Shown: in pieces, positions 32,232 through 43,761 of the stretch
Layout: every line of letters starts with the position of its first letter
Numbering within the stretch: position 1 is the first letter of the stretch
NCBI RefSeq assembly: GCF_021209385.1
Contig: NZ_JAJOIL010000002.1
Coordinates: forward strand, 1 to 43,761
Reading direction: 5' to 3'
Source: Seleniivibrio sp.
Lineage (GTDB): Bacteria; Chrysiogenota; Deferribacteres; Deferribacterales; Geovibrionaceae
Length of the DNA stretch: 43,761 nt
Notes under the pieces: generated by a model
Databases searched by the model: none
The model's input: the letters and a program-made list of their open reading frames with translations, nothing else
What the model was told of the DNA's origin: nothing
Translations under genes and position numbers: made by a program

Positions 32232-32313
32232 CATAAAAATACTTGCCCAAAATTCAAAATGTCTGTACGAACACAGGAGACAAAACTATCGGAGATTTTT
32301 CTGTTAAATAAAC

Positions 32314-32329
32314 TGGCACGCCTTTTGCA
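32314..32329 (+). promoter_or_regulatory. Sigma-54 (-24/-12) promoter of the dCache kinase
   Basis: TGGCACG-CCTT-TTGCA is an exact match to the consensus, with GG at 32315-32316 and GC at 32327-32328. Transcription would start near 32341, so the kinase is likely translated from ATG 32370 rather than from 32259. I see no GGTCAA-N6-TTGACC palindrome in the 120 bases upstream. Confidence 0.8.
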
Positions 32330-32369
32330 CGTTTCTCTCGGTAAATTATACGATCCAAACGGAACCGAG

Positions 32370-34490
32370 ATGACATTTAAAGTTAAAAATTCATTGATCA
32401 CCATGACGCTTGTTCTCATCGGGATACTCACCCTTATAGGTGTGACCTATCACAGCACACGGGTGATTATCGACAGAACGGTCATGAACCACCAGCAGAA
32501 CATAGCCGCGCAGGCGGCGAACACCACCGGAATATGGGTTCAGCAGCAGATAAAGATACTCCAGTCTGCGGCGAATTCGCTTGGTAAAGAGCCTGAAAAG
32601 AATCTTGATAAGACTATGAACATTCTGAAAATGGCTATGGATGCGGGTGATTTCAGTGACGTTTATATCGGCATGTACGACGGGCAGATGATAGACGGGG
32701 CTGAATGGATTCCGCCGCACAATTACGACCCCAGGACACGCCCGTGGTACAAAAGAGGCGAAAAGTCGGATTCCGCCGGTTTCACATACCCTTACGTTGA
32801 TATGACCACCAGACAGATAGTAATTGCCCTTTCAATGCCTATTGTTGCCGACAGAAAACTGAAAGGTGTTCTCAGTGCGGACACTAACCTTGATATGCTT
32901 ATGAAGAACGTGGTGAACGCCAGAGCGGCTAAGGGCGGATATACCTTCGTTGTCAGTCAGGGCGGAACCATCATAATGCACCCCGACAAGAATCTGCTCA
33001 TGCGCGAAAAACTGCAGGACGCCGACCCCAGTCTTGAAAACATCCTTAACGTTATGAAGGACGAAGACTCCGGTTCGTTTTCATACACACAGCATGGCAA
33101 AGAATATATCCTCGCCTTTCAGAAGATAGAAAACGTTGATTGGTACCTCTGCACAACCATGACCAGAACCAACGCATACGAGCTTTCCGGCAGAGCGTCC
33201 ATGCTCCTCGCCACCGAATCGGTGCTTAAAGTGCTTGGGCTTCTGGTGGTTATAACCATGATCGGCATAGGCGGAAGCGCACTTATTCTGTATCTGTATA
33301 ACCGCAGGTTTGTCAACGCTATGCAGAGGCAGCAGGTGCAGATAACAGGTATGAACGAAGACCTTAAGTGGAACATCACCCGCCGTAAGGAACTTGAGAC
33401 ACACTACCACACTCTGTTCAACGTGGCGAACGACGCAATCATGGTCTGCAAGGGTATGATATTTGTGGACTGCAATGAAAAGGCGAACGAGATATTCAGG
33501 CTGAGTCATTACGGTATATTGGGAAATAACATGCTCGATCTTTCACCTGCCCACCAGCCCGACGGGGTGCGCAGCCACGAGAAAGCGCTTGTTATAATCT
33601 CGGAAGCGGAGAAGGGCGAACAGCAGTTCTTTAACTGGAACTTCATGCGTGGCGACAAAACGGAGTTCCCCGCTGAAGTGAGTCTTAAAAAGCTCCGTCT
33701 GAACAATGAACAGCTCATATTGCTGAGTATCAGGGACATATCCAAACGTGTGAACGCCGAACAGCAGCTTCGTCAGGCGCAGAAGATGGCGGCGATGGGT
33801 GAGATGGTGGGAGCCATAGCCCACCAGTGGCGCCAGCCTCTGAACATCCTTTCAACATACGTTGCCAGTATCCAGTCGGCATACTATAATAATATGGTGA
33901 ATAAGGATTTTGTTGAAAAACTGGTGTCCGGAGCGGACAGCCAGATTCAGTTCATGTCAAAGACCATCGACGATTTCAGACACTTCTTCAAACCGTCAAA
34001 GGCGAAGGAACCTTTCGATTCCGTTGAAGCGGTGGAGAGCGCCGCAAGGCTCATAGCGCCTAATTACAAAGACGGCAATATATCGCTCAACATACTGAAA
34101 CCGCAGGAAAAATATCCGCTGGTGGTTAACGGATGCCGGAGCGAATTTGTTCACGTTGTTCTTAACCTGCTGGCAAATGCCAGAGACGCTATTATTGAAA
34201 GAAATGCACCGGAAGACGAACCGCGTGAAGTTTATATTGAGATTGAACATGACGACAATAATGTTATGATAAAGGTGAAAGATACCGGATGCAAGATAGC
34301 GGAACATATTCTGCCGAAGATATTCAACCCGTATTTTTCCACAAAGACCTACGCTTCGGGAACGGGGATAGGACTTTATATGTCGCGCACCATTATCGAA
34401 AGCGAGATGCAGGGGACATTGACCGCGCAGAACTATGAGCATGGAGCGGTGTTTACGGTAACCCTGCCGAAAATTCATAAAGAGGATTAA
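32370..34490 (+). CDS. dCache-PAS sensor histidine kinase
   Basis: A membrane sensor kinase of 706 residues from ATG 32370, chosen because a consensus sigma-54 promoter lies inside the longer frame from 32259. TM1 is at about 8-27. A dCache domain fills the periplasmic part (30-275), with R124-x-W126-Y127 and Y142-x-D144, the pattern seen in amino-acid-binding dCache domains. TM2 is at about 285-308, PAS at 345-460. The H-box 'GAIAHQWRQPLNIL' has His at 485, and N, G1 ('VKDTGCKI') and G2 ('TGIGLYMSRTI') boxes follow. G1 has 'CK' where DxG-x-G is usual, a small deviation. The NtrC-type regulator follows after one base, so they form a pair. Confidence 0.9.
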   Translation: MTFKVKNSLITMTLVLIGILTLIGVTYHSTRVIIDRTVMNHQQNIAAQAANTTGIWVQQQIKILQSAANSLGKEPEKNLDKTMNILKMAMDAGDFSDVYIGMYDGQMIDGAEWIPPHNYDPRTRPWYKRGEKSDSAGFTYPYVDMTTRQIVIALSMPIVADRKLKGVLSADTNLDMLMKNVVNARAAKGGYTFVVSQGGTIIMHPDKNLLMREKLQDADPSLENILNVMKDEDSGSFSYTQHGKEYILAFQKIENVDWYLCTTMTRTNAYELSGRASMLLATESVLKVLGLLVVITMIGIGGSALILYLYNRRFVNAMQRQQVQITGMNEDLKWNITRRKELETHYHTLFNVANDAIMVCKGMIFVDCNEKANEIFRLSHYGILGNNMLDLSPAHQPDGVRSHEKALVIISEAEKGEQQFFNWNFMRGDKTEFPAEVSLKKLRLNNEQLILLSIRDISKRVNAEQQLRQAQKMAAMGEMVGAIAHQWRQPLNILSTYVASIQSAYYNNMVNKDFVEKLVSGADSQIQFMSKTIDDFRHFFKPSKAKEPFDSVEAVESAARLIAPNYKDGNISLNILKPQEKYPLVVNGCRSEFVHVVLNLLANARDAIIERNAPEDEPREVYIEIEHDDNNVMIKVKDTGCKIAEHILPKIFNPYFSTKTYASGTGIGLYMSRTIIESEMQGTLTAQNYEHGAVFTVTLPKIHKED

Positions 34491-34491
34491 T

Positions 34492-35901
34492 TTGTTTGAC
34501 CTGACAGGATTCAACCCCTCCATTCTGATAATAGACGACGAGAAAGAGGAACTGACAGCTTATAAGTTTCTGCTTGAATCAATGGGGCTTAAAGATATTA
34601 CAACCCTTGACGACAGCAGGAATGTTCTTGATACACTTGAAAAACTCGATTCTCCCGTTGTGTTTCTCGACCTCAACATGCCGAAAAAGAGCGGCAAAGA
34701 GGTTCTGAAAGAGATCAAGGAGCGTCTTCCGCAGGTTCCGGTTATAATCTGCACTGCGAACAGCGACCTTGAAACCGCTGTGGAGTGCCTTAAGCTCGGC
34801 GCACACGACTATCTTGTTAAACCTATAAGTGTCAGCACTTTCGGTTCAGCGCTGAGAAACGCCAGCGAGATAGGTTCACTCCGTTCGGAACTCCTTTCAC
34901 TTAAAAGGATCGGTACGGATACAGGACTTAAAACTCCAGAAAACTTCAAAAGCCTTGTCACATGCAGCGGCATAATGACGGGCATATTTCAGTATATAGA
35001 ATCCATTGCGAAAAGCGGTCAGCCGGTGCTGGTTCTCGGTGAGACAGGTGCAGGCAAGGAGCTGATAGCCAAGGCTGTTCACGATTCCAGCGGGCTGAAC
35101 GGCGAATTCGTCGCCGTGGACGTTTCAGGGCTTGATGATTCGCTGTTCTCCGACACCCTGTTCGGTCACGCAAAGGGCGCGTATACAGGTGCTGACAGCA
35201 CCCGTCCGGGGCTTGTGGAGCGTGCGGCGGGCGGAACGATATTCCTTGACGAGATAGGCGATCTTAACGAGACCTCGCAGGTGAAGCTTCTGCGTCTTAT
35301 GCAGGAGCGGATATACTATCCTCTCGGTTCGGATAAGCCCAAACAGTGTCAGGCGCGGATAATCGCCGCGACAAACAAAGATCTGAACGCTATGACCGTT
35401 GCCGGCGGCACATTCCGCCGCGACCTTTATTACAGACTCAGCACACATCTTATAAAACTGCCTTCACTGCGGGAACGCAAAGAGGATATTCCCCTTCTGA
35501 CGGAATATCTTGCGGAAGAAGCGGCAAAAGGAATGGGCAAAACTACGCCTGTTTTCAGCCCGCAGACGATGCGTATGCTCATGGGACACGATTTCCCCGG
35601 CAATATCAGAGAGCTGAAAACCTATATCTATGACGCAGTTGCGAGGTGCAATTCCGAAGTTATGGAGGACAGGTTCATAGCCGACAGGCTGGGTGAGCTC
35701 ACGCGGGAGCAGACTGTACAGATTCTATCCGGCGAGCCTCTGGAGCAGATATTCGGTCATTTCCCCACCCTTGAGGAAATCACCCAATATGCTGTTACAT
35801 CGGCGATGAAGTCAGCAAATAATAATCAGTCGCAGGCGGCGAAGCTTCTGGGCATCTCCAAACAGGCGCTCAACAAACGTATTCAGAAACGCGGACACTG
35901 A
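34492..35901 (+). CDS. NtrC-family response regulator (sigma-54 activator)
   Basis: A 469-residue partner of the preceding kinase. The TTG start at 34492 has AGAGGA five bases upstream. The receiver domain has the acidic pair D15/D16, phosphoacceptor D60 ('VVFLDLNMP') and K110. The AAA+ domain has Walker A GETGAGKE (183-190), the sigma-54 contact loop as GAYTGA (229-234; Y for the usual F) and Walker B '[12 protein letters not shown]'. The C-terminal Fis-type HTH is '[19 protein letters not shown]'. The palindrome GGTCAA-N6-TTGACC before the two following catabolic genes, each with a -24/-12 promoter, is its probable binding site. Confidence 0.92.
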
Positions 35902-35922: not shown

Positions 35923-35944
35923 GGGGTCAATAAAAGTTGACCCC
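35923..35944. promoter_or_regulatory. Probable enhancer site upstream of the aldehyde dehydrogenase
   Basis: GGGGTCAA-TAAAAG-TTGACCCC is a perfect palindrome with 8-bp arms, flanked on each side by a further GTCAA word (35914 and 35946). It lies 47 bases before the -24 element. The core is the same as the site at 37659-37676. Confidence 0.75.
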
Positions 35945-35990
35945 CGTCAACTATAACTGCCGCAAAACCACTGTTTCAATACCTTTTTTC

Positions 35991-36006
35991 TGGCACTGTT
36001 CTTGCG
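35991..36006 (+). promoter_or_regulatory. Sigma-54 (-24/-12) promoter of the aldehyde dehydrogenase gene
   Basis: TGGCACT-GTTC-TTGCG has GG at 35992-35993 and GC at 36004-36005, the required spacing. The gene starts 35 bases later. Confidence 0.85.
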
Positions 36007-36040
36007 TCCTTTTCCTCCATCAGATTTCATGAGGTGAACG

Positions 36041-37465
36041 ATGAAGCATTATAAAACTTTGATCGGAGGGGAGTGGGTCGATTCCGCCAAAAAACTTGAA
36101 GTGAAGAACAAGTATAACAACGAAGTCTTCGCCGACGTTCCCGTTGCGGACGAGAAAGAGACTCAGAGAGCCATAGACATAGCCGAAGAGGCTTTCAAAA
36201 CTTTCAGAAAATGCCCCGCACACAAAAGGTCGGAGATACTTGAAAAAACAGCCGACATCATCCTTGCCAGAAAGGAAGAAATTGCGGAGATAATATCAAA
36301 AGAAGCGGGAAAAGCATGGAAATTTTCCATGAACGAGGTTTACCGCAGTGCGGAAACCTTTAAATTTGCCGCGGAAGAGGCGAAAAGAGTACACGGCGAA
36401 ACCATTCCCGTGGATGCCAGCGCATTCGGTGAGAACCGCGTGGGCTATTTCATCAGAGAACCTCTGGGAGTTATCGGAGCCATCACTCCTTTCAACTTCC
36501 CGCTGAACCTTGTTGCGCACAAGGTCGCACCTGCCATTGCAACTGCGAACACGGTTGTTCTGAAACCGGCGTCCAGCACTCCTTTGTCTTCAATCATCCT
36601 TGCCGAAATAATGGAGGAGGCAGGACTGCCCGCAGGTGTTCTTAACGTTGTCATCGGTTCCGGCGGCACAGTTGGCGACACCATCGTGGCAAGCCCCAAA
36701 TGCAAGAAGATAACCTTCACAGGTTCACCCGGCGTCGGCGATCAGATAATCAAAAAAGCGGGTATCAAAAAGGTCACTCTTGAGCTTGGCAACAACTCCG
36801 CAACGCTCATTGAAGCCGATGCGGATATCGAAAAAGCCGCCGCAAGATGCGTCGTCAGCGCGTTTTCAAACTCAGGACAGGTGTGCATCTCACTCCAGAG
36901 AATATACGTTAACAGAAAAGTTGCAGAAGAGTTTTCTAAGGTTTTTGTAGAAAAGACGAAAGCTCTCGTTGTGGGCGATCCCATGGATGCGGCTTGTGAC
37001 GTTGGGCCCATGATAGACGGCAAAGAGCTTAAACGTATCGAGGAATGGGTGAACGAGGCGGTTGCTCAGGGCGCTGTGCTCGCCGCAGGCGGAAAGGTCA
37101 ACGGCAACATCTTTGAACCGACAGTGCTCACAAACGTCACCGAGGATATGAAGGTAATGTGTATGGAGACCTTCGCGCCCGTTGTGTCCATCGTTGCATA
37201 CGATAATTTCAGCGATGCAATCAAACGCGTGAACGATTCCGACTTCGGGCTTCAGGCTGGCGTTTACACCAGAGATATTAACAAGATAATGGAGGCTGTG
37301 GAAGACCTTGAAGTTGGCGGCGTTATGATTAACGACACTGCAACGTTCAGAGTTGACCATCTGCCCTATGGCGGAAACAAACTTTCAGGTCTCGGACGGG
37401 AAGGCGTGCGCTTTGCCATGGAGGACATGACAAGCATCAAAATGGTGATGATAAACAGAAACTGA
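36041..37465 (+). CDS. NAD(P)-dependent aldehyde dehydrogenase (probable succinate-semialdehyde dehydrogenase)
   Basis: Oxidises an aldehyde to the acid, 474 residues. Catalytic C282 is in 'NSGQVCISLQR', general base E248 in 'VTLELGNNSA' (ELGN where ELGG is common), oxyanion N152 in 'TPFNFPLN'. The C-terminal 'GGNKLSGLGREGVRFAMEDMT' matches the lactaldehyde/succinate-semialdehyde branch. The gene has its own sigma-54 promoter, follows the NtrC-type regulator, and precedes a GABA-type aminotransferase. These neighbours make succinate semialdehyde (or glutarate semialdehyde) the best guess; the sequence alone does not prove it. A strong terminator ends it. Confidence 0.88.
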   Translation: MKHYKTLIGGEWVDSAKKLEVKNKYNNEVFADVPVADEKETQRAIDIAEEAFKTFRKCPAHKRSEILEKTADIILARKEEIAEIISKEAGKAWKFSMNEVYRSAETFKFAAEEAKRVHGETIPVDASAFGENRVGYFIREPLGVIGAITPFNFPLNLVAHKVAPAIATANTVVLKPASSTPLSSIILAEIMEEAGLPAGVLNVVIGSGGTVGDTIVASPKCKKITFTGSPGVGDQIIKKAGIKKVTLELGNNSATLIEADADIEKAAARCVVSAFSNSGQVCISLQRIYVNRKVAEEFSKVFVEKTKALVVGDPMDAACDVGPMIDGKELKRIEEWVNEAVAQGAVLAAGGKVNGNIFEPTVLTNVTEDMKVMCMETFAPVVSIVAYDNFSDAIKRVNDSDFGLQAGVYTRDINKIMEAVEDLEVGGVMINDTATFRVDHLPYGGNKLSGLGREGVRFAMEDMTSIKMVMINRN

Positions 37466-37470
37466 TAAGA

Positions 37471-37552
37471 GAATGAGATCGCTTCGGGTATACGACCCTC
37501 GCGAAGACGGAAAAAGTAAGTCTCTGCGAGCGGAGCGAAGCAGTCTCATCAG
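37471..37552. repeat. Dispersed palindromic element, copy B
   Basis: The ends are inverted repeats: GAGATCGCTTCG near 37475 and CGAAGCAGTCTC near 37547. The centre has a second stem, CTCGCGAAGAC with GTCTCTGCGAG. The same left end, stem and right end occur in copy A (15028-15204). It sits directly after the dehydrogenase stop codon and holds no gene. Confidence 0.65.
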
Positions 37553-37594
37553 GATAAACAAACTTAACTGCACGAAAGTCAACCCGTGCATTTC

Positions 37595-37627
37595 GCCCCG
37601 TTATCGGACAGGTAACGGGGCTTTTTT
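37595..37627 (+). terminator. Rho-independent terminator after the aldehyde dehydrogenase
   Basis: GCCCCGTTA (37595-37603) pairs with TAACGGGGC (37613-37621), followed by six T residues. It makes the aminotransferase dependent on its own promoter. Confidence 0.92.
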
Positions 37628-37658
37628 ACGTCAATTTTTGTTTATTTTCCGGTCTGCG

Positions 37659-37697
37659 GGTCAATTATTGTTGACCTGCACTTCAATAAAAATTGAC
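37659..37697. promoter_or_regulatory. Tandem enhancer sites upstream of the aminotransferase
   Basis: A perfect GGTCAA-N6-TTGACC palindrome lies at 37659-37676. A weaker copy, TTCAA-N6-TTGAC, lies at 37682-37697 with the same spacing. They are about 90 and 65 bases upstream of the -24 element. The core equals the site before the dehydrogenase, which supports control of both by one regulator. Confidence 0.75.
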
Positions 37698-37747
37698 ACA
37701 AATGGGTCTGGTTGAAAAAATATTTTATTTATTAATATCTTATCTTG

Positions 37748-37763
37748 TGGCATGGGCGTTGCT
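37748..37763 (+). promoter_or_regulatory. Sigma-54 (-24/-12) promoter of the aminotransferase
   Basis: TGGCATG-GGCG-TTGCT has GG at 37749-37750 and GC at 37761-37762. The in-frame ATG at 37752 lies inside this element, which rules it out as the start. Confidence 0.85.
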
Positions 37764-37802: not shown

Positions 37803-39149
37803 ATGCTGAAAGGCGACGAACTGGCGCAGATATCTGCACCCCAAAGCGAAAAGACAAAAGAACTGCTCCGCAAGAAAGAGGCGTACGTTGCGGCTGGCAT
37901 AAGCGCTTCCGTACCGATTTTTATCAAACAGGCTAAGGGCGCTGTTATCGAGGACATCGACGGCAACCGCTATATAGATTTCTATGCCGGAATAGGCGTT
38001 ACCACCGCAGGGCACTGCCCCGAACCCGTCGTTGCGGCTGTTAAGGAGCAGGCGGAAAACCTCATCCACTCCTGTTTCATGGTCTCAATGTATGATTCCT
38101 ACGTTGAGCTTTCCAAAAAGCTCACTGAGATAGCACCGGGAAATTTCGAAAAGAAGGCGATGCTTGTTAACAGCGGCGCGGAAGCCGTTGAAAACGCCGT
38201 TAAGATAGCCAGAGCATACACAGGCAGACAGGGCGTTATCTGTTTCGAGTCCGCTTTCCACGGACGCACACTGCTCACAATGTCACTCACCAGCAAAGTG
38301 AAACCCTATAAACACGGCTTCGGTCCCTATGCGCCCGAAGTTTACAAGGTTCCGTTCCCCAACCTTTACAGAGGTCAGCTCCACGTCGGCAAAGAGAACG
38401 CGGTGAAGGCATACCTTGACTACTTCGAAAGGTTCTTCGCGGCGGAGGTTGACCCTTCGCACATCGCCGCAATCATCATCGAACCTGTTCAGGGTGAGGG
38501 CGGATTTAACGTCACACCCAAAGAATATATGAAAGGGCTTCGCGAAATATGCGACAAACACGGCATCCTGCTTATTGCGGACGAGGTTCAGACGGGCTTC
38601 TGCCGCACAGGAAAGATGTTCGCTATGGATCATTACGACATTTCTCCCGACCTTGTCACCATGGCTAAGTCAATCGCATCCGGTATGCCCCTTTCGGCAG
38701 TTGTGGGACGCAGAGACGTTATGGATTCAGTCGGCGCGGGACGCATCGGCGGCACATACGGCGGCAACCCTGTTGCGTGCAAAGCGGCGCTTGCGACCAT
38801 TAAATATATGGAAGACGAGAAACTCGCCGACAAATCAGCAGACCTCGGCGAAAGGATAGTGGAGCGCGTTAAGGCACTTCAGGCTGAGTTTCCCGTGATA
38901 GGCGATGTTCGCAACCTCGGCAGCATGATAGGTATCGAGTTCATCAAAGACGAAACCACAAAGGAACCCGACAAATACAGCGTCACATCGATAATAGCTG
39001 AATGCCAGAAGGACGGTCTGCTGCTCATCGGCGCGGGTATCTTCGGCAACGTTATCCGTATGCTTCCCCCTGTTGTACTTACAGACGCGCAGTTCGGTCA
39101 GGCAATGAGCATATTCGAAAAAGCAGTACGCAAGGTGCTGAGTAAGTAA
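37803..39149 (+). CDS. gabT: 4-aminobutyrate-type class III aminotransferase
   Basis: A PLP-dependent omega-amino acid transaminase of 448 residues. ATG 37803 is preceded by GGAGG (37793-37797). The active site is complete: 'NSGAEAVENAVKIAR', D260 in 'LLIADEVQTGFCRTG' contacting the PLP ring, and Schiff-base K289 in 'MAKSIASGMPLSAV'. The family moves the amino group of GABA or a related compound to 2-oxoglutarate, yielding a semialdehyde for the dehydrogenase encoded upstream. GABA, 5-aminovalerate or a similar substrate would fit. It is followed by a hairpin and then the second Liv importer. Confidence 0.9.
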   Translation: MLKGDELAQISAPQSEKTKELLRKKEAYVAAGISASVPIFIKQAKGAVIEDIDGNRYIDFYAGIGVTTAGHCPEPVVAAVKEQAENLIHSCFMVSMYDSYVELSKKLTEIAPGNFEKKAMLVNSGAEAVENAVKIARAYTGRQGVICFESAFHGRTLLTMSLTSKVKPYKHGFGPYAPEVYKVPFPNLYRGQLHVGKENAVKAYLDYFERFFAAEVDPSHIAAIIIEPVQGEGGFNVTPKEYMKGLREICDKHGILLIADEVQTGFCRTGKMFAMDHYDISPDLVTMAKSIASGMPLSAVVGRRDVMDSVGAGRIGGTYGGNPVACKAALATIKYMEDEKLADKSADLGERIVERVKALQAEFPVIGDVRNLGSMIGIEFIKDETTKEPDKYSVTSIIAECQKDGLLLIGAGIFGNVIRMLPPVVLTDAQFGQAMSIFEKAVRKVLSK

Positions 39150-39251: not shown

Positions 39252-40490
39252 ATGAATCTGAAGAAATTCATCGTTCCTGCCGTTGTACTGGCAATGGGAA
39301 CAGCATCTTTTTCTGCTTACGCTGCGGAAAAAGTGGTCAAGATAGGTAACATACTCCCCCTGTCCGGACCTTCGGCATCCGTTGGTATTCAGGGCAAACA
39401 GGCAAGGGAAATGGCTGTTGACGAGATCAACAAAGCAGGTGGTATCAAGGCACTCGGCGGTGCTAAGCTGAAACTTCTCTTTGCCGACAGCAAAGGCGAT
39501 CCCACAACAGGCGTTACTGAGACTGAACGCTTCATCAGCACCGAAAAAGTCAGCATCGTCACAGGCGCCTGGAACTCATCCGTAACCTATCCCTCGACTC
39601 AGGTTGCCGAAAGATACGGGGTTCCCTTCGTTGTGCCCGTGTCTGTCCGCGACACTATAACAGAGAGAGGCTTCAAAAACGTGTTCCGCATCGCAGCGAA
39701 AGACTCATGGTGGACACGCGACCAGTTCCGCTTCCTTTCCGATATGCAGAAAGAATTTAAAACCCCCATTAAAAAAGTTGCTTTTGTTTATGAAAACGGC
39801 GACTGGGGAACAGGTTTCGCTGAGAAATGGCGTGAACTTGCGAAGGCTGCCGGATATCAGGTTGTTCTTGATGAACCCTATCCCAGCACAGCAAGCGACC
39901 TTACCCCCGTTGTTCTTAAACTGAAACGCTCCAACCCCGACGTTGTCTTCATGACTTCAAACGCGGCTGACGCGATTCTTCTTACAAAGACAATGACCGA
40001 CCTCAAGGTCAACGTTAAAGCCATTGTAACATCCGGCGGCGGACACGCAGACCCTTCATATCTGGCGGCTGTGGGCAAGAGTGCTGAATATCTGTTCGAC
40101 ATCGTCGAGTGGGAGACAGACCTCAACAGACCCGGTCTGAAAGAGACAAACGAAAAGTTCAAAAAACTCTACGGATATAACCTCACAGGTGAAGCTGTTG
40201 ACGCATACGCTTCCATGTACCTCGTCAAAGACGTTCTGGAAAGAGCAAAATCAACAGACCCCAACGCTCTGCGCGCGGCTCTTGCATCCACAAACCTTTG
40301 CGGCGGCAAAACAGGTCTTCTGGCATACAACTGTATCCAGTTTGACCAGACAGGGCAGAACAGGAACGCAAGCCTTGTCATTGTTCAGGTGAGAAGCGGC
40401 AAAGACGGCAAGATGGAGAGAATCACCGTATGGCCTAAAAACGTCAGAAGGGCGGGATATAAAGTGGTATTCCCCCAACCGAATAAATAA
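39252..40490 (+). CDS. livK: Amino-acid ABC transporter substrate-binding protein (LivK family), second system
   Basis: Periplasmic receptor, 412 residues. GGAGG precedes ATG 39252. The signal peptide ends near residue 25 ('SAYAAEK'). The binding fold opens with 'IGNILPLSGPSASVGIQGKQ' and carries 'GAWNSSVTYPSTQVAERYGVPFVVP', the region that usually contacts ligand (quoted in part). A possible disulphide pair lies near the C terminus in 'LCGGKTGLLAYNC'. It clearly differs from the first receptor, so another ligand is likely. Its position after gabT suggests GABA or a related amine (inference). Confidence 0.93.
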   Translation: MNLKKFIVPAVVLAMGTASFSAYAAEKVVKIGNILPLSGPSASVGIQGKQAREMAVDEINKAGGIKALGGAKLKLLFADSKGDPTTGVTETERFISTEKVSIVTGAWNSSVTYPSTQVAERYGVPFVVPVSVRDTITERGFKNVFRIAAKDSWWTRDQFRFLSDMQKEFKTPIKKVAFVYENGDWGTGFAEKWRELAKAAGYQVVLDEPYPSTASDLTPVVLKLKRSNPDVVFMTSNAADAILLTKTMTDLKVNVKAIVTSGGGHADPSYLAAVGKSAEYLFDIVEWETDLNRPGLKETNEKFKKLYGYNLTGEAVDAYASMYLVKDVLERAKSTDPNALRAALASTNLCGGKTGLLAYNCIQFDQTGQNRNASLVIVQVRSGKDGKMERITVWPKNVRRAGYKVVFPQPNK

Positions 40491-40504
40491 GAACCATTCA
40501 TAGA

Positions 40505-40545
40505 ACGGGTCGGGGGAGACTTTTACCCCCCTGACCCGTGTTTTT
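40505..40545 (+). terminator. Attenuating hairpin between livK2 and livH2
   Basis: ACGGGTC plus G5 (40505-40516) pairs with C5/GACCCGT (about 40527-40539), followed by G and five T residues. It occupies the same operon position as the terminator after livK1 and probably sets a higher receptor-to-permease ratio. Confidence 0.82.
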
Positions 40546-40560
40546 ACGGGAGTTATTATT

Positions 40561-41445
40561 ATGATCGGCTATATAGAATCCGTCATCAACGGCATACTCA
40601 TGGGTTCGATTTACGGACTCACTGCGGTGGGGCTTACCCTGATATTCGGGGTGATGAAGGTGGTAAACTTTGCTCACGGCTCAATCCTCATGGTGGGGAT
40701 GTTCGCTGCATACTGGTTTATTACGCTGACAGGGGTTAACCCCTATCTGGCGCTTGTGGTTGTTGTACCTCTGCTCTATTTCTTCGGTTATTATATGCAG
40801 AAGATCGTCATTAAACCCATCTTTGAAGCTGAAAAGCATGTCAGAGAGCCTATCACTGTCATCATAGTCACAACGGGTATCTGGTATGTTCTGGACAACC
40901 TTGCTCTGCTGGTTTTCGGTGCGGAGTTCCGCGTTGCTCAGACATCCGTCACAGGCAAAATGGTTGAAGTGGCAGAGATGTATTTTCCGCTGGCAAAGAT
41001 AATCGGCACAGGGATAACACTTCTGCTGGGCGTATACCTTTACTGGTTCCTCAAACACTCGCGTATGGGAAAAGCTGTGCGCGCAACGAGCCTTGACAGG
41101 GAGGCGGCAACCCTTATGGGCATCAAACAGAGCCGCATATACAACATCGTATTCGGTATGGGCTGCGCCTGCTGCGGCGTTGCGGCTTGCGTTCTTGTCC
41201 CTTTCTATTATGTATATCCGACGGTTGGCGTTCCGTTTGACATAAAGGCTTTTGTAATAGTCGTTCTCGGCGGTCTGGGGAGCATCCCCGGCGCGATACT
41301 GGGCGGCGTGATCATCGGTATCATAGAGACCGTGGGCGCACAGTTTATGGCGGCGACATGGACGGAAATGCTTATATATGCGTTTTTCCTTGTGGTTCTG
41401 TTTGTTAAACCTTCCGGTCTCTTCGGTCTGAGACAGGATTATTAA
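40561..41445 (+). CDS. livH: Liv-type ABC transporter permease LivH, second system
   Basis: Inner-membrane permease of 294 residues with eight or so helices. The N terminus reads 'INGILMGSIYGLTAVGLTLI' then 'MKVVNFAHGS', and 'GGLGSIPGAILGG' lies near the C terminus. A GGGAG ribosome site lies just after the attenuator hairpin. It is followed 12 bases later by livM. Intact. Confidence 0.93.
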   Translation: MIGYIESVINGILMGSIYGLTAVGLTLIFGVMKVVNFAHGSILMVGMFAAYWFITLTGVNPYLALVVVVPLLYFFGYYMQKIVIKPIFEAEKHVREPITVIIVTTGIWYVLDNLALLVFGAEFRVAQTSVTGKMVEVAEMYFPLAKIIGTGITLLLGVYLYWFLKHSRMGKAVRATSLDREAATLMGIKQSRIYNIVFGMGCACCGVAACVLVPFYYVYPTVGVPFDIKAFVIVVLGGLGSIPGAILGGVIIGIIETVGAQFMAATWTEMLIYAFFLVVLFVKPSGLFGLRQDY

Positions 41446-41457
41446 GGGGGCGCACAG

Positions 41458-42471
41458 ATGAAATTTCTAAGCAACGTACCGACAACACATAAAGTATTCG
41501 CGGCGCTTGTTCTGGCTGTGCTCTACGCACTGCCGCTGTTTGTTACAAGCCCTGTTATGTTACAGATATTCATACTTATATTCTTCTATGCGTATCTGAC
41601 CTCTTCATGGAACTTCGTTGGCGGTTTCGCAGGGGTTCTGCCTCTGGGGCACTCCGCATTTGTTGGACTTGGCGCTTATACGTCAACGCTTCTTTATCTC
41701 ACATACAACATCAGCCCGTGGATAGGCATGATAGCGGGCGGCATCGTGGCGGCGGCGTTCGGTCTGCTCATCGGTCTGCCGACACTGAAACTGCGCGGCG
41801 CATATTTCGCCCTTGCAACCATTGCGTTTGCCGAGGGTCTGCGCGTTCTGGTGGAAAATATCGAAAAACTCGGTTCTTTCGAGGTTCGCGGTCCCAAGGG
41901 TCTGCTCATCAACCTTGTGGGCAACTCGTTCAGGGATTTTCAGTTTCTCAGCAAGGTTCCCTATTATTACATAATACTCACCATGCTTGTACTGGTGCTG
42001 ATACTGACCTTTTTTATGATGCGGTCAAAGGTGGGCTACTACCTTGCTGCCGGTGGCGAAGAACCGGAAGCTGCGGAGGCGCTTGGTATCAAGGTTTCAA
42101 AATATAAGCTCATCGCAATGGCGATAAGCTGCTTTCTCACAGCTCTTGGCGGTACTTTCTATGCCCAGCTCGTGCTGTATTTCTATCCGAAATCCATCAT
42201 GGGGCTTGATATGTCCTATGAAATCGCTTTCATCGCCCTCATAGGCGGCAGAAGTACAATCTTAGGTCCCGTTCTCGGCGCGTTCCTTCTGCGTCCGGTT
42301 GGTGAGCTTACGAGGATATACCTCGGCGATACGCTCCCCGGTCTGCACCTCATCATCTTTGGTCTGGTGCTCATAATCGTTATGCGCTATCAACCGCGTG
42401 GGCTTGTTGAGCCTGTGTCAAAATGGCTTACCGCTATTTTTGACCGCATTGAGAACAGGAGGAGGGCGTAA
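41458..42471 (+). CDS. livM: Liv-type ABC transporter permease LivM, second system
   Basis: Second permease, 337 residues, slightly longer than its paralogue at 2587 because of an extended N terminus and a charged C-terminal tail. The family segments 'SSWNFVGGFAGVLPLGHSAF' and 'LKLRGAYFALATIAFAEGLR' are present. It ends two bases before livG. Intact. Confidence 0.93.
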   Translation: MKFLSNVPTTHKVFAALVLAVLYALPLFVTSPVMLQIFILIFFYAYLTSSWNFVGGFAGVLPLGHSAFVGLGAYTSTLLYLTYNISPWIGMIAGGIVAAAFGLLIGLPTLKLRGAYFALATIAFAEGLRVLVENIEKLGSFEVRGPKGLLINLVGNSFRDFQFLSKVPYYYIILTMLVLVLILTFFMMRSKVGYYLAAGGEEPEAAEALGIKVSKYKLIAMAISCFLTALGGTFYAQLVLYFYPKSIMGLDMSYEIAFIALIGGRSTILGPVLGAFLLRPVGELTRIYLGDTLPGLHLIIFGLVLIIVMRYQPRGLVEPVSKWLTAIFDRIENRRRA

Positions 42472-42473
42472 TC

Positions 42474-43205
42474 ATGGCACTTTTGGAAGTTAAAGGCGTA
42501 ACGAAGCAGTTCGGCGGTCTCACGGCGGTCAACAATGTGGATATGGAAGTGCAGGAGGGGCAGATTGTCGGGATCATAGGACCCAACGGTGCAGGCAAAA
42601 CGACCCTTTTCAGCTGCATAGCCGGTTCACACGTTCCCACTAAAGGGAGCATAAAATTCAACGGAACAGAGATTGCGGGCAAAAGACCCTATGACATATG
42701 CAAACTGGGCGTGACCAGAACCTTTCAGGTGGTTAAGCCCTTCGCAAACAAAACCGTGCTCTATAACACAACCGTCGGCGCTTTCGCAAAGACCAACAGA
42801 CTGGACGTTGCGGAAGAGAAGGCGATGGAGGTTCTTAAACTCATCGACCTTTACGACAAAAAGGACGTTCCCGCAAAGAACCTCACTCTGCCGGAACGTA
42901 AAAGGCTTGAGCTTGCCAGAGCGCTGGCAACAGAGCCTAAGCTGCTGCTGCTGGACGAGGTTATGGCAGGGCTGCGTCCCTCCGAAGTGGCGGAGATGCT
43001 GCCCGTTATCCGCAAGATAAACTCCGTGGGCGTTTCGATAGTTATCGTCGAGCACATAATGCAGGCGATAATGAACCTGTCGGAGCAAGTGTACGTTATC
43101 AATTTCGGTAAGAAGATAGCCGAGGGAGACCCCCATAAGGTGGTCGCCGAGGAAGAGGTTATCAAAGCCTATCTGGGGGATGAATATGTCGCTAATAGCC
43201 ATTGA
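42474..43205 (+). CDS. livG: Liv-type ABC transporter ATP-binding protein LivG, second system
   Basis: ATPase of 243 residues with Walker A GPNGAGKTT, a relaxed signature 'LTLPERKRLELARAL', Walker B 'LLLLDEVMAGL' and H-switch 'IVEHIMQAI'. It overlaps the interrupted livF by 20 bases. As its ATPase partner is broken, the complex may depend on a foreign LivF, for example the one at 4240. Confidence 0.93.
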   Translation: MALLEVKGVTKQFGGLTAVNNVDMEVQEGQIVGIIGPNGAGKTTLFSCIAGSHVPTKGSIKFNGTEIAGKRPYDICKLGVTRTFQVVKPFANKTVLYNTTVGAFAKTNRLDVAEEKAMEVLKLIDLYDKKDVPAKNLTLPERKRLELARALATEPKLLLLDEVMAGLRPSEVAEMLPVIRKINSVGVSIVIVEHIMQAIMNLSEQVYVINFGKKIAEGDPHKVVAEEEVIKAYLGDEYVANSH

Positions 43206-43656
43206 AAATCTTTGCGCCGGATACGGCGAGATAGGCGTTCTGTTCGACGTCTCCATGCGTGTGGAGGCGGGCGAAGTTGTGAGCATCATCGGTGCGAACG
43301 GTGCGGGCAAATCCAGCCTGCTCAAAGCGCTTTCCGGTCTCATCCGCCCGTCGTCCGGCAAAATAACCTTTAACGGCGAGGATATTACTAAGCTCCCCGC
43401 CGACGAGATAGTGGGCAGGGGACTTATCCACGTTCCCGAAGGCAGAAGGCTTTTCAGCCTTATGACCGTTTTCGAGAACCTTGAGATGGGCGCTTTCAGC
43501 AAGCGCGCACAGAAGGATTTCAAAAAGAATCTGGAGGACGTGCATAACCTGTTTCCGCGACTGAAAGAACGGGAAAAACAGCTCGCAGGAACGCTTTCCG
43601 GCGGTGAACAGCAGATGGTCGCCATCGGAAGGGGCGTAAGCTCCCCTATTAAGTAG
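43186..43656 (+). pseudogene. livF: Second livF, truncated by an IS3-family insertion
   Basis: The frame starts at ATG 43186 (GGGGGA five bases upstream). It has Walker A GANGAGKSS and the signature LSGGEQQMVAIGRG. After 'AIGRG' (about base 43635) the LivF sequence stops: where the intact copy at 4240 continues with 'LMSLPKLMMLDEPSLG', this one reads VSSPIK and ends. The frame has 156 codons instead of about 234 and lacks Walker B, the D-loop and the H-switch. An IS element begins at the break. The truncated product should not hydrolyse ATP. The rest of the gene may lie beyond the window. Confidence 0.9.
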
Positions 43657-43761
43657 ACGTTTCATAAGCAGAGTTTTTCTGGCAAACTATAAAAGCTAGG
43701 AGGCTCGTTTTGAAGAAGTCACGATTCACAGAGACACAGATAATTTCAATTCTTAAAGAAG
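43636..43761 (+). mobile_element. IS3-family insertion sequence, left end (runs off window)
   Basis: The sequence changes from LivF coding DNA at about 43635/43636 to a non-coding leader with an IS-end-like start (AGCTCCCCTATTAAGTAGAC), then a transposase gene with its own ribosome site. The style resembles IS3-family ends of the IS2/IS407 type. The right end, second transposase frame and target duplication lie outside the window. Confidence 0.82.
43710..43761 (+). CDS. IS3-family transposase OrfA (partial)
   Basis: The first 17 codons of an OrfA-type protein, a helix-turn-helix DNA-binding subunit that acts with OrfB through frameshifting. The TTG start at 43710 follows AGGAGG (43698-43703). 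The visible peptide 'MKKSRFTETQIISILKE' is the standard beginning of IS3-family OrfA proteins. The window ends inside the gene. Confidence 0.88.
   Translation, partial: MKKSRFTETQIISILKE

Follow-up and report, generated by a model that had tools for sequence, protein, structure and literature searches.

A conserved palindromic operator and predicted sigma-54 promoters probably link a predicted amino-acid-sensing two-component system to GABA-type catabolism genes in Seleniivibrio

In Seleniivibrio sp., genes for an aldehyde dehydrogenase and a class III aminotransferase follow a two-component regulatory gene pair, and the same palindrome lies upstream of both. Is this palindrome the site through which the neighbouring regulator would control them? 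The window, the whole stretch of 43,761 nucleotides analysed here, carries in order a kinase, a regulator, the dehydrogenase, a terminator, the aminotransferase and an amino-acid ABC transporter (Table 1). The gene content and domains, the operators and promoters with their conservation, and the way in which the operator follows the regulator through two phyla lead us to consider it highly likely that the regulator binds the palindromes and activates sigma-54-dependent transcription of the genes for dehydrogenase, GABA-type aminotransferase and transporter. The kinase-regulator pair very probably switches on neighbouring genes for the catabolism of an amino acid, such as GABA, by way of this palindrome.

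Table 1. Features of the window (G002 and G004, sister species; C7, contig with a second copy of the locus).
Feature	Position	Strand	Sequence or basis
Sensor histidine kinase	32259-34490	+	Pfam: TM - dCache_1 - TM - PAS - HisKA - HATPase
Third sigma-54-type -24/-12, before kinase-regulator operon	32314-32328	+	TGGCACGCCTTTTGC, exact match
NtrC-type response regulator	34492-35901	+	Pfam Response_reg, Sigma54_activat, HTH_8
Extra half-site GTCAA	35914-35918	+	upstream of operator 1; kept in three species
Operator 1	35925-35942	n/a	GGTCAATAAAAGTTGACC, exact GGTCAA-N6-TTGACC; kept in G002 and G004
Extra half-site GTCAAC	35946-35951	+	downstream of operator 1, 20 bp from its start; kept in three species
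-24/-12 of dehydrogenase gene	35991-36005	+	TGGCACTGTTCTTGC, perfect; identical in G002 and G004
Aldehyde dehydrogenase, succinate-semialdehyde-dehydrogenase-like	36041-37465	+	Pfam Aldedh 4e-165
Intrinsic terminator, dehydrogenase-aminotransferase spacer	37595-37629	+	11-pair stem, then T run
Operator 2a, weak	37630-37645	n/a	GTCAATTTTTGTTTAT; largely kept in three species and C7 copy
Operator 2b	37659-37676	n/a	GGTCAATTATTGTTGACC, exact; core half-sites kept in G002, G004, C7
Operator 2c	37681-37698	n/a	CTTCAATAAAAATTGACA; three mismatches to GGTCAA-N6-TTGACC
-24/-12 of aminotransferase gene	37748-37762	+	TGGCATGGGCGTTGC, one mismatch; TGGCAC (perfect) in G002, G004, C7
Class III aminotransferase, 4-aminobutyrate family	37803-39149	+	start ATG 37803, not 37752
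Amino-acid ABC transporter	39252-43640	+	binding protein, LivH, LivM, LivG, LivF
Transporter binding protein	39252-40490	+	Pfam, NCBIfam
LivH	40561-41445	+	Pfam, NCBIfam
LivM	41458-42471	+	gene order common with orthologous loci
LivG	42474-43205	+	gene order common with orthologous loci
LivF	from 43180, cut ~43640	+	gene order shared with orthologous loci; end of homology

A first-pass annotation of this DNA had proposed that both genes share the palindrome GGTCAA-N6-TTGACC, together with weaker copies, upstream of -24/-12 promoters. Both exact palindromes and both promoters are present, and the weaker copies are real: the 16-bp core of operator 2c, TTCAATAAAAATTGAC (37682-37697), is invariant in four sequences, those of three species and the C7 copy. 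The arms of operator 1 extend to GGGGTCAA and TTGACCCC, spanning 35923-35944. From the centre of the proximal site to the -24 element the distance is 57.5 bp at the dehydrogenase promoter and 58.5 bp at the aminotransferase promoter and in the C7 copy, the imperfect operator 2c thus occupying nearly the position of the perfect site before the dehydrogenase. The exact pattern occurs twice in the window against 0.0026 expected (P for at least two occurrences = 3e-6) and three times in the 2.9 Mb genome against 0.17 expected (P = 7e-4). A genome scan had been set as a check on the proposal, and all three exact sites precede dehydrogenase or aminotransferase genes of the gab-locus type. When two or three mismatches are allowed, matches to the pattern do not exceed the chance level in either window or genome (at two mismatches, 51 genomic matches against 60 for the reversed control), and hence only near-perfect sites carry signal. 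A genome-wide regulon beyond these loci is accordingly unsupported; the one-mismatch sites C12:60219, C12:76498 and C25:169071 have no -24/-12 element nearby.

Palindromes of this kind could instead form RNA hairpins, as terminators or attenuators. Short stems are possible, and a weak terminator-like stem was flagged on the minus strand at 35935-35952. Against this, the palindromes lie upstream of the -24/-12 elements and lack a T run on the plus strand, and a separate true terminator begins at 37595; on these grounds the terminator reading was rejected. Conservation across loci, moreover, falls mainly in the half-sites and not in the spacer, leaving a hairpin function scarcely credible.

Operator function in transcription initiation thus remains the preferred reading, and the arrangement of the genes bears on its extent. 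The terminator at 37595 splits dehydrogenase and aminotransferase into two units, which accounts for a separate promoter and set of operators before each gene. A scan to 39400 showed no strong terminator that would part the aminotransferase from the binding-protein gene, and therefore the transporter is probably part of the second unit. The regulon of two genes originally proposed was too small: the transporter genes, which are the core target in the other phylum discussed below, follow the aminotransferase, and a separate -24/-12 element stands before the kinase-regulator operon. The core of this third element, AACTGGCAC-N5-TTGCA, is kept in five genomes despite diverging flanks, and no recognisable palindrome was seen there. 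The true start of the kinase is probably the ATG at 32370, which is conserved in alignment. Elsewhere in the locus, a repeat-like GCGAGCGGAGCGAAGCAGTCTCAT occupies 37476-37553 in the dehydrogenase-aminotransferase spacer; a similar sequence precedes the dehydrogenase gene in G002, and the window holds a single copy, which does not establish a dispersed repeat. Homology to the sister species ends near 43640 within livF, and 43640-43761, to the contig end, holds an IS3-type OrfA-like start (KKSRFTETQIISILKE).

The third exact palindrome of the genome, C7:39975, precedes a further aminotransferase gene (product 94% identical) whose -24/-12 promoter, TGGCACATTCGTTGC, is perfect. A regulator 94% identical to that of the window is encoded in a Seleniivibrio woodruffii assembly. 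Both sister species keep both palindromes, and in G002, G004 and the C7 copy the operators and -24/-12 elements form conserved islands amid diverging spacers. The C7 region (L046, G000:C7:28000-40991) is a second dehydrogenase-aminotransferase-transporter copy, 86.5% identical in DNA, that carries operators and -24/-12 elements of its own and ends at the contig edge within the dehydrogenase gene. Its livF is intact and is followed by a further sigma-54 activator gene and a gene for a molybdopterin oxidoreductase. An origin by tandem duplication is unsupported, given these other genes past livF and the IS-like contig end inside livF in the window; the C7 block differs from the window about as much as it does from the sister species.

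The NtrC-type activator described directly before the target genes is borne out by its domains. Its receiver (Response_reg, 2e-26) has an LDLNMP motif with the phospho-acceptor aspartate, its AAA+ domain (Sigma54_activat, 4e-53) the Walker A sequence GETGAGKE and GAYTGA as a GAFTGA variant, and its third domain is a Fis-type helix-turn-helix (HTH_8, 5e-7). It thereby shows the receiver, AAA+ and HTH features of NtrC-family response regulators, which are sigma-54 activators, without reaching the cut-off of a named equivalog (AtoC, the best, 307 against 714 bits; NtrC, 290 against 559). Binding of the upstream palindrome and a need for rpoN are predicted from comparative evidence.

Part of this evidence comes from a second phylum, in distant genomes of sulfate-reducer type. 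In a sample of 194 genomes from the order of a Desulfobacterales MAG, ten encode regulator orthologues of 60-64% identity, and at all ten loci palindromes of the form GTCAAC-N4-GTTGAC lie beside the kinase-regulator genes. At nine of the loci the palindrome is present twice, at a distance of exactly 19 bp; the tenth has, judged by eye, a degenerate partner at 19 bp. These palindromes typically precede a binding-protein gene whose product is 63-66% identical to that of the window, and a -24/-12 element (at most one mismatch) follows in 6/10 loci. The targets vary: the operator precedes TRAP-transporter genes replacing the ABC transporter in G163, an additional operator precedes a chemoreceptor gene in G204, and a dehydrogenase orthologue (75%) lies downstream of the transporter in G186. 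In G013, of the window's own order, an aldehyde ferredoxin oxidoreductase (AFOR) replaces the dehydrogenase and the operator is retained. Since operator and regulator both persist while targets change, which would otherwise be hard to explain, the two appear to work together, and the original suggestion that operator, regulator and sigma-54 promoters belong together gains comparative support.

Two wider searches point the same way. The composite GTMAAYN4RTTKAC-N40-70-TGGCA gave 14 matches, which fall in 9 of 40 genomes and are confined to the window's own family, against six scattered matches for its reversed control, none of them in that family; several of the matches lie outside gab loci. 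Among 53 related regulators, a palindrome lay within about 1.5 kb of 15/33 with a QA[LMVF]xKR-type helix and 0/20 with other helices (Fisher P = 1.7e-4, a value that ignores relatedness, for a helix class defined post hoc); such P values are optimistic because loci related by homology are not independent samples. Among the 18 negatives within the helix class are several che-type regulators, whose sites lie farther off. Individual loci also depart from the pattern: the aminotransferase of G008 is preceded only by a drifted operator, the dehydrogenase genes of G008 and G010 have a -24/-12 element and no evident operator, G013 has an operator and no clear -24/-12, and in G005 a regulator of 52% identity has no operator nearby.

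Might the palindrome belong to another dimeric regulator, for instance a FleQ-like one, the neighbouring regulator acting elsewhere? FleQ boxes (GTCAAT-N2-ATTGAC; PMC10723142), found at flagellar and biofilm genes, have the same half-sites, as does the DVU2894 motif, yGTCA-N6-TGACr (PMC4641369). The FleQ box, however, is 14 bp long with a 2-bp spacer, against 16 bp and 4 bp here: at operators 1 and 2b and at the collected gab-type sites GTCAAY and RTTGAC stand 4 bp apart. As the palindrome also follows the regulator gene across phyla and does not occur close to regulators whose helices are of other types, we judge this very improbable and retain the adjacent regulator as the predicted binding protein. 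The TyrR box, TGTAAA-N6-TTTACA (PMC4374768), shares the 18-bp frame, 6-bp spacing and G-N14-C anchor of the window operator, which differs in having C where the TyrR box has A as the fourth base of each arm; operator 1 matches 8/12 positions by eye, where a TyrR box needs at least 10/12, and TyrR is a one-component aromatic amino-acid regulator.

As a system, the pair resembles AtoSC and NtrBC in its kinase, its receiver-AAA+-Fis HTH regulator, its palindromic upstream activating sequences and its -24/-12 promoters; among NCBIfam models AtoC scores best with the regulator, and operator and targets differ. In Bacillus thuringiensis, GabR activates a GABA aminotransferase gene in a sigma-54-dependent manner from a repeat upstream of a -24/-12 promoter, but it is a one-component PAS protein, and its site, a 21-bp inverted repeat with 5-bp separation, is unlike the palindrome of the window (PMC4279683). 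No description of a GTCAA-N6-TTGAC operator was found in the texts searched; motifs in PMC4641369 and PMC3333781 are given as logos only, so a published equivalent is possible.

The first-pass annotation was right to see an activator, to which a cognate kinase with a predicted amino-acid-sensing domain can now be added. The sensor region of the kinase can be aligned to PctA, PctB and PctC and carries the complete seven-residue PctA-type amino-acid motif (Y156, R161, W163, Y164, Y179, D181 and D208). Of 14 kinase orthologues, 13 have all of these contact residues, the remaining one having a conservative Y-to-F change. Four of the seven motif positions we take to belong to the PctA-type contact set. 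The others correspond to W128, Y144 and D173 of the PctA motif (PMC10104139). The kinase is thus probably a dCache_1AA amino-acid sensor, its ligand binding being predicted from these residues, and GABA is suggested as its signal because of the identity of the aminotransferase.

The same circuit might serve 5-aminovalerate, beta-alanine or another omega-amino acid in place of GABA, which we regard as a serious if less probable option. The dehydrogenase falls below every curated NCBIfam cut-off shown (TIGR01780, succinate-semialdehyde dehydrogenase, 408 against 646 bits), its best model being lactaldehyde dehydrogenase, and its substrate is therefore uncertain. In Pseudomonas aeruginosa, moreover, AgtSR-agtABCD, likewise a two-component system beside an ABC transporter, handles both GABA and 5-aminovalerate (PMC11113362), although the AgtS sensor is an SBP_bac_3 domain and that of the window kinase dCache_1. 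The aminotransferase, by contrast, passes the curated cut-off for 4-aminobutyrate transaminase (TIGR00700, 577 bits against 506.65), as does that of G013, and the solved structures nearest to it are GABA aminotransferases. GABA, or a near relative, remains the favoured substrate.

The palindrome is not private to the gab system. The genome of the window (G000:C16, L078) holds a paralogous kinase-regulator pair adjoining a chemosensory operon that has nearly the same operator before it, and such pairs (41-46% identity) lie near chemosensory-type genes in this genome, G001, G003 and G006-G011, the receiver, MCP, CheA, CheW, CheR and CheD being assigned by Pfam in L078 only and elsewhere by gene size and order. 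Most of these che loci have GTMAAY-N4-RTTKAC sites at 64-71 bp spacing with a -24/-12 element about 70 bp away; the G003 locus yielded a -24/-12 element alone. Two or three gab-like palindromes each lie at the chemosensory-type operons of L078:7337-7486, L061:8645-8863, L063:6690-6908 and L067:6033-6251, and the che-type sites (TGTMAA-N6-TTKACA) are close to the TyrR box. At L065:2381-5774 (G009:C10), a gab/che-type operator and a perfect -24/-12 element lie near two genes that encode carbonic anhydrase domains of eukaryotic type, in one case fused to the signalling domain of a chemoreceptor.

The two regulons could consequently be cross-wired, the C16 paralogue binding the gab palindromes or the gab regulator the che sites. 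The paralogous regulator (45% identical) has the same type of helix, ITRQALHKR; the promoter beside it carries GTCAACTTTAATTTAC and GTCAACTTTGATTAAC with a -24/-12 element; both site collections share the core GTCAAY-N4-RTTGAC; and paralogous regulators on one site are reported from D. vulgaris (PMC3333781). Yet the flanking base, the main difference between the collections, separates them in this genome: GTCAA is preceded by G at gab operators 1 and 2b, and both che sites have T in that place, the base present in 78% of che half-sites overall. Che sites also tolerate A at position 3, and the sensor domains of the two kinases differ. We therefore think cross-wiring unlikely and prefer separate control of the gab genes by their own regulator. 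More tentatively, a widespread sigma-54 two-component clade (helix LGI[ST][KR]QALxKR) might use one operator, GTMAAY-N4-RTTKAC, having been duplicated between amino-acid catabolism and chemosensory operons (about 64-71 bp spacing), a generalisation we hold to be possible and still doubtful.

Under the favoured mechanism, an extracellular amino acid, GABA or a near relative, would probably bind the dCache_1AA domain of the kinase, which would then phosphorylate the regulator. GTCAAY-N4-RTTGAC would be its upstream activating sequence, occupied by dimers of the phosphorylated regulator that would bind co-operatively at strong and weak sites separated by about two turns of the helix. The bound regulator would loop to sigma-54 RNA polymerase at the -24/-12 element, with ATP hydrolysis driving open-complex formation, and aldehyde dehydrogenase, GABA-type aminotransferase and transporter would be induced. 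The transporter may then import the amino acid, the aminotransferase transaminate it and the dehydrogenase oxidise the resulting semialdehyde.

Judged by this comparative record, the predicted regulon is real, well supported and new, and its switch is of a familiar type. For a sigma-54 two-component system that two phyla have retained, and whose signal is predicted to be an amino acid outside the cell, it offers a concrete assignment of regulator, operator and targets, and it provides a natural test case for insulation against cross-talk between paralogous enhancer-binding proteins that share an operator. If the wider clade holds, gab and che regulators in one cell may be cross-wired, linking the sensing of food to production of the chemosensory array, or may be insulated by the single base flanking each half-site.
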